From: Myxococcota bacterium | GTDB lineage: Bacteria > Myxococcota_A > Bradymonadia > UBA7976 > UBA1532 | NCBI GenBank assembly: GCA_963169045.1 | Contig: CAUJDF010000011.1 | Location: 1-64,000 of the forward strand | Reading direction: 5' to 3' | DNA length: 64,000 nucleotides | Shown here: positions 1,961-44,807 of the stretch, in pieces | Position numbering within the stretch: position 1 is the first letter of the stretch | Layout: every line of letters starts with the position of its first letter | Notes under the pieces: model-generated | What the model was told of the DNA's origin: nothing | Databases searched by the model: none | Seen by the model: the letters and a program-made list of their open reading frames with translations, nothing else | Position numbers and translations under genes: made by a program

Positions 1961-2262
1961 GCGACAGGCCTCCACCGCCACCGGAATCGTCCAGTACTGG
2001 GAGGAGGTACGGCGGGGAGAGGGGTGGGTCCTTTCGGGGTGGGTCACCGCGGCGATGGGACGAGCCCGAACGGTGCGGTCAGAGGTCGTGAAGCAATCGG
2101 ACGCCTTGGCGAGCGGGCCGATGCGTCGTGCCAGCCAAGGAGTGGGGTGCAGAAAATCCGAGCTGTAGCAGAAGCTACAGCGCAGGATTTTCGGGGCCCC
2201 GCGACGCCGGATGGCGCGGCGAAGCGGCACGCGCAGCCGGCGGACGATTGCTTCACGACCTC
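1961..2262. other. 302-bp gap holding the inverted-repeat element
   Basis: No gene is supported here. Roughly 1961-2080 holds the ribosome-binding site of the kinase gene and nothing else that I can interpret. The rest is the foldable element at 2081-2263. Confidence 0.6.

Positions 2263-2263
<1 letters not shown>
2081..2263. repeat. 183-bp element with perfect 19-bp terminal inverted repeats and a nested palindrome
   Basis: The left arm AGAGGTCGTGAAGCAATCG (2081-2099) is the exact reverse complement of 2245-2263. Inside, GAAAATCC (2152-2159) pairs with GGATTTTC (2185-2192), and within that GCTGTAGC (2162-2169) pairs with GCTACAGC (2174-2181) around an AGAA loop. The right arm ends on the first base of the aminomutase stop codon. 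No ORF lies inside and I see no target-site duplication. It could be a MITE-like non-autonomous element or a structured 3' UTR of the aminomutase mRNA. Confidence 0.7.
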
Positions 2264-3624
<1,361 letters not shown>

Positions 3625-44746: not shown

Positions 44747-44807
44747 TCCGCGGCACCCGCTGTCGCGCCGCCGCGACAGCGGGTGCCGCGACAGCGGGTG
44801 CCGCGGA
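44747..44807 (+). promoter_or_regulatory. Mutually exclusive double hairpin
   Basis: CGCGGCACCCGCTGTCGCG (44749-44767) pairs perfectly over 19 bp with 44772-44790 around a 4-base loop. The overlapping segment 44747-44765 also pairs perfectly over 19 bp with 44789-44807 across a 23-base loop. The right arms are two copies of a 17-bp direct repeat. Only one stem can form at a time, as in an attenuator. No T-run follows. It sits 34 bp after one gene and 97 bp before the next, with a C-rich tract before it. Confidence 0.65.

Follow-up and report, generated by a model that had tools for sequence, protein, structure and literature searches.

A palindromic MITE at TGA stop codons in Myxococcota, probably mobilised by an IS1182-like transposase

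The window, the whole stretch of 64,000 nucleotides analysed here, carries a palindromic non-autonomous mobile element of 181 bp (positions 2082–2262, + strand), which has no gene of its own and is by structure a MITE. From sequence comparisons we consider it very likely that an IS1182-like DDE transposase moves this element in trans, with duplication of TGA. At the sequence level, this reading draws on the ends, 3-bp duplications, dispersed copies, arrays, an orientation bias and one restored ORF, as well as on IS1182-like elements that have similar ends and duplicate the same triplet. In the proposed mechanism, the transposase would cut (C)TGA, or sometimes (C)TGC, with a 3-bp stagger, and the element would be joined in a preferred orientation, duplicating the TGA. 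At a stop codon, duplicating the TGA would rebuild the stop and leave the protein unchanged. The new TGA copy could then serve the next element as a landing site, generating ladders at gene ends. A mobile element could in this simple manner stay nearly harmless in a gene-dense genome, since its target equals the stop codon and is duplicated upon entry. The element also offers a clean case of why a MITE retains a whole-length hairpin through compensatory changes, and of how one-way insertion is achieved although the ends handled by the transposase are inverted repeats.

An earlier note on this DNA had described a 183-bp palindrome with perfect 19-bp arms and judged such arms improbable by chance. 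The arms are indeed exact (AGAGGTCGTGAAGCAATCG at 2081–2099 and its reverse complement at 2245–2263), as are the nested 8-mers forming the inner stems (GAAAATCC/GGATTTTC and GCTGTAGC/GCTACAGC), and with up to 3 mismatches the 19-bp arm matches the window only at these two places, where 0.01 matches would be expected. The palindrome extends over 183 bp as described, but not the element: A2081 and T2263 belong to a TCA direct repeat (2079–2081 and 2263–2265), so that the element proper is 2082–2262. The + strand of this interval is the ‘forward’ strand common to its relatives. Its terminal inverted repeats (TIRs) of 18 bp lie at 2082–2099 (left, + strand, GAGGTCGTGAAGCAATCG) and 2245–2262 (right, − strand), and imperfect pairing goes on inward. 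A variable apical hairpin of two stacked 8-bp stems, whose arms covary among relatives, occupies 2152–2192 (+ strand). The left TCA (2079–2081) is recognised as one copy of a 3-bp target duplication (TSD) from the equal 3-bp flanks of sister copies. The right copy (2263–2265, − strand) is itself the TGA stop codon of the host gene (2263–3624, − strand), which encodes a lysine-2,3-aminomutase-like radical SAM protein of 453 aa (PF12544 above cut-off; relatives bearing names are mostly from Polyangia/Myxococcota). The adjacency to the aminomutase stop noted earlier is thus real, but it is more than mere abutment. No such element follows the stop of the aminomutase gene in the 13 relatives examined.

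A DNA search of the home genome (9.0 Mb in 109 contigs; this assembly and those of the relatives are drafts) identified about ten related elements, the best with 89% identity along its length; the 19-bp arm also turns up at further sites with 1–3 mismatches. Full-length relatives of 180–182 bp were found in G002, G011 and G009, all from the same family as the home genome. Identical 182-bp copies occupy different sites in G002, pointing to recent movement. Apart from one weak partial match in the first search, no copies were found in the other families searched within the class. The earlier note had named multiple copies with the same ends as the mark of a mobile element, and a single copy with arms unconserved in relatives as the mark against it; we find the former, in the home genome and in related ones, and not the latter.

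A scan for TIRs plus TSD in 1.19 Mb sampled from the home genome distinguished four end types (GAGCTTGTGAAGC, GAGGGTCGGCGG, GAGGGTGTTCCCATG and CAGCGGCGGGCGTCC), and genome-wide searches with these four yielded many more copies and fragments. The four terminal-repeat subfamilies of the home genome have in common both the 3-bp duplication and (C)TGA as the target. Short, bounded by TIRs and a TSD, without transposase gene and represented by dispersed copies with the same ends and a constant length (180–182 bp in the window's family), the element is a MITE, as the earlier note had suggested among other readings; the in-silico empty site and the IS elements with similar ends described below further support this. 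Several copies (L003/L008, C42:83018–83276; L004/L007, C74:110303–110575; L014, end of C8) carry an extra hairpin segment in an arm or in the centre, i.e. nested insertions or expansions preserving the overall palindrome. L005, L121, L123 and other copies start with CAG, not GAG, the first base changing jointly with its partner at the opposite end (column pair 1–184). Contigs C3, C8, C28, C30, C56, C79 and C97 of the home genome end inside or beside elements, so that copies are probably undercounted in the draft.

TIR-plus-TSD matches with element-like ends in the 1.19-Mb sample carry TGA/TCA duplications. Among TIR pairs with equal 3-bp flanks, TSD not required, TGA/TCA was found in 34 cases versus 4 with other triplets. 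We then considered 30 elements chosen for their TGA/TCA duplication. A C precedes the TGA in 26 of the 28 readable sites, and the upstream TGA is the end of a coding frame in 23 of 30, compared to 3.9% of all TGAs, gene ends being those of a codon-usage caller made for this analysis and not of an annotation. Most of the non-stop exceptions lie behind another element or tens of bases from a stop. The stop share of 77% is a moderate excess over the 45% calculated for all non-coding CTGA sites (p 5e-4), and a share of 70–83% is expected if CTGA insertions are tolerated only within 50–200 bp of gene ends. A CTGA target together with the loss of harmful insertions therefore predicts the stop bias; active recognition of stop codons is not needed and was dropped. 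Stop codons would be favoured since other insertions are presumably purged.

The structure of an insertion can be followed in G002 C199, where a transposase gene is interrupted by an element with GCA on either side. In-silico deletion of 182 bp and one GCA gives a continuous transposase ORF of 467 aa that weakly matches DDE_Tnp_1 and the domain associated with it. As the triplet varies by site (TCA or GCA) yet is equal on both sides, a triplet carried by the element itself is excluded.

Candidate partners were found as complete IS elements in two genomes. The IS in G000 C85 (L141, 150–1825) is 1676 bp long and has a 534-aa transposase, a TGA duplication and the IR GAGGRTCGGCCAGAAT. In G009 C432 (L146, 1333–2979), an IS of 1647 bp is flanked by a 3-bp TSD, and its first 14 bp are those of sibling-MITE ends; IS fragments are present in G002. 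The transposase scored 256.2 bits (E 6.2e-76) with the NCBIfam IS1182 model NF033551, below the curated cut-off of 270, for which reason we term the IS IS1182-like; it also matched PF13751. None of the IS elements found in the genomes searched has the GAGGTCGTGAAGC ends that the window's subfamily carries, and these ends resemble those of the IS found only in their outermost bases. By analogy with the sibling elements, a transposase of this IS1182-like kind probably moves the window's own subfamily. An IS5/IS1031-type origin, implying a TNA target and GAG ends, was dropped, the IS with similar ends having proved IS1182-like. A candidate IS remnant on C74 had no matching end. An IS-like element of 867 bp in G000 C2 (L132:1162–2028), with IR GGGCGTGTTTGGCAACC and a 2-bp TA duplication, surrounds a DDE_Tnp_1 ORF and is unrelated to the MITE.

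Elements also occur in arrays. On C42 (107510–108111), three elements of different subfamilies stand in series, parted by (T)TCA and GCA and with TCA at the outer bounds. Similar pairs occur on C69, C28, C11 and C8, and head-to-tail stacks are parted by TGA. Of the 25 distinct left ends in the window's family that have a TGA-type flank, 24 show TCA or GCA when read along the element (19 TCA and 5 GCA, against 1 TGA); one further end has TCG. The element ends are near-perfect mirrors, yet insertion is oriented relative to TGA. The same orientation is seen in copies away from stops (in G002, in G009 and in GCA copies) and therefore follows the target sequence, not the host gene. A weaker one-way lean was observed for the other subfamilies, and readable IS ends also have TGA in transposase orientation.

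A single hairpin takes in all 183 nt (RNA fold, −132.6 kcal/mol, z −14.5; DNA fold of 2082–2262, z −10.6). Using 15 copies from three genera, a 56-pair hairpin was derived with G-U pairs disallowed, in which 97.2% of cells are paired and 29 of the 56 pairs show double (compensatory) changes; no shuffled or slid version comes near. Among young copies, covarying pairs are few (1/82 in subfamily b, 1/70 in c and 9/67 in d) and decay is symmetric, hence the hairpin is kept in the propagating lineage and not in single copies at host sites. The full-length hairpin would be retained since it helps the element to propagate.

The same covariation could however mean that the hairpin is mainly a functional structured RNA or ssDNA produced from the window + strand, its palindromicity being selected for that strand, for example as a structure that is recognised during transposition and fixes the orientation as well. 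In all 15 window-family copies the forward strand folds better than the reverse, by 12–26 kcal/mol, G-T pairs exceed A-C pairs 69 to 8 in counts made copy by copy, and a purine (G or A) fills 17 of the 18 unpaired columns that do not vary. We nevertheless regard this as rather unlikely. The copies have a common ancestry and, when clades are counted, G-T pairs lead by only 17 to 7, not significant, so that a strand-specific role is suggested rather than established; moreover, strand asymmetry is absent from subfamilies b, c and d (4:5, 6:8 and 8:7 pairs), their young copies covary little, and the region 1800–2600 of the window has no Rfam match up to E 1. A further variant appears quite doubtful: within a DDE system inserting in fixed orientation at CTGA, a strand-specific hairpin (RNA or ssDNA) might let the machinery distinguish near-identical ends. 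If so, stop codons would be self-renewing harmless landing sites.

Selection by the host seems improbable. A host-beneficial 3′-end element, a terminator or mRNA stabiliser under selection at stops, would fit the location at gene ends and the very stable hairpin, but our search found no T-tract terminator or other terminator-like site, and the 77% stop share falls within the range predicted from tolerated CTGA targets. In the sense of the host transcript G-T and A-C pairs are equal (76 versus 79), hence selection on this transcript is not seen, and the orthologous gene end of relatives lacks the element. The structured 3′ UTR proposed in the earlier note may still exist as a side effect. We give even less credit, indeed hardly any, to single-strand transposition into a tetranucleotide by a REPIN/RAYT-type or other HUH system. 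Oriented insertion and a strand-asymmetric hairpin, which are typical of such systems, would speak for it. Yet the TSD is a true one that varies by site (TCA or GCA on both sides), contrary to the absence of target duplication that serves as a criterion for REPIN/RAYT, the interrupted ORF is restored, and a DDE-type IS has similar ends and shows the same duplication. The REPIN-like reading of the earlier note is not supported: the copies have TIRs and TSDs, and their relative among IS elements is of the DDE type.

The MITE, probably mobilised by an IS1182-like transposase, can be compared with known systems. It is like bacterial MITEs in being short, devoid of a gene, bounded by TIRs and TSDs, and dispersed (PMC10969869), and clusters in which one element has inserted into another are described for BOX/RUP/SPRITE (PMC10969869). 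Unlike the MITEs reviewed there, it combines a full-length covarying hairpin with TGA duplication on stop codons, oriented insertion and TGA-separated ladders; that review mentions neither stop codons nor IS1182. IS1272, of the IS1182 family, replaces a target stem-loop without TSD (PMC5678879). The transposase family is alike, but the presumed partner IS (L141, L146) shows a 3-bp TGA duplication. REP/REPIN and BIME mosaics (PMC2817692, PMC3733652) are also palindromic, extragenic, near gene ends and organised in mosaic arrays, whereas the present element is longer and has TIRs, a TSD and a presumed DDE IS partner. In the literature searched, which included few subscription papers and did not extend to ISfinder, TGA target behaviour was not reported, and nothing relevant was found on stop-codon-targeting IS or MITEs or on myxobacterial MITEs.

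The window has just one further strong close palindrome, a 21-bp perfect inverted repeat (TCCGCGGCACCCGCTGTCGCG, 44747–44807) accompanied by a second overlapping half-copy.
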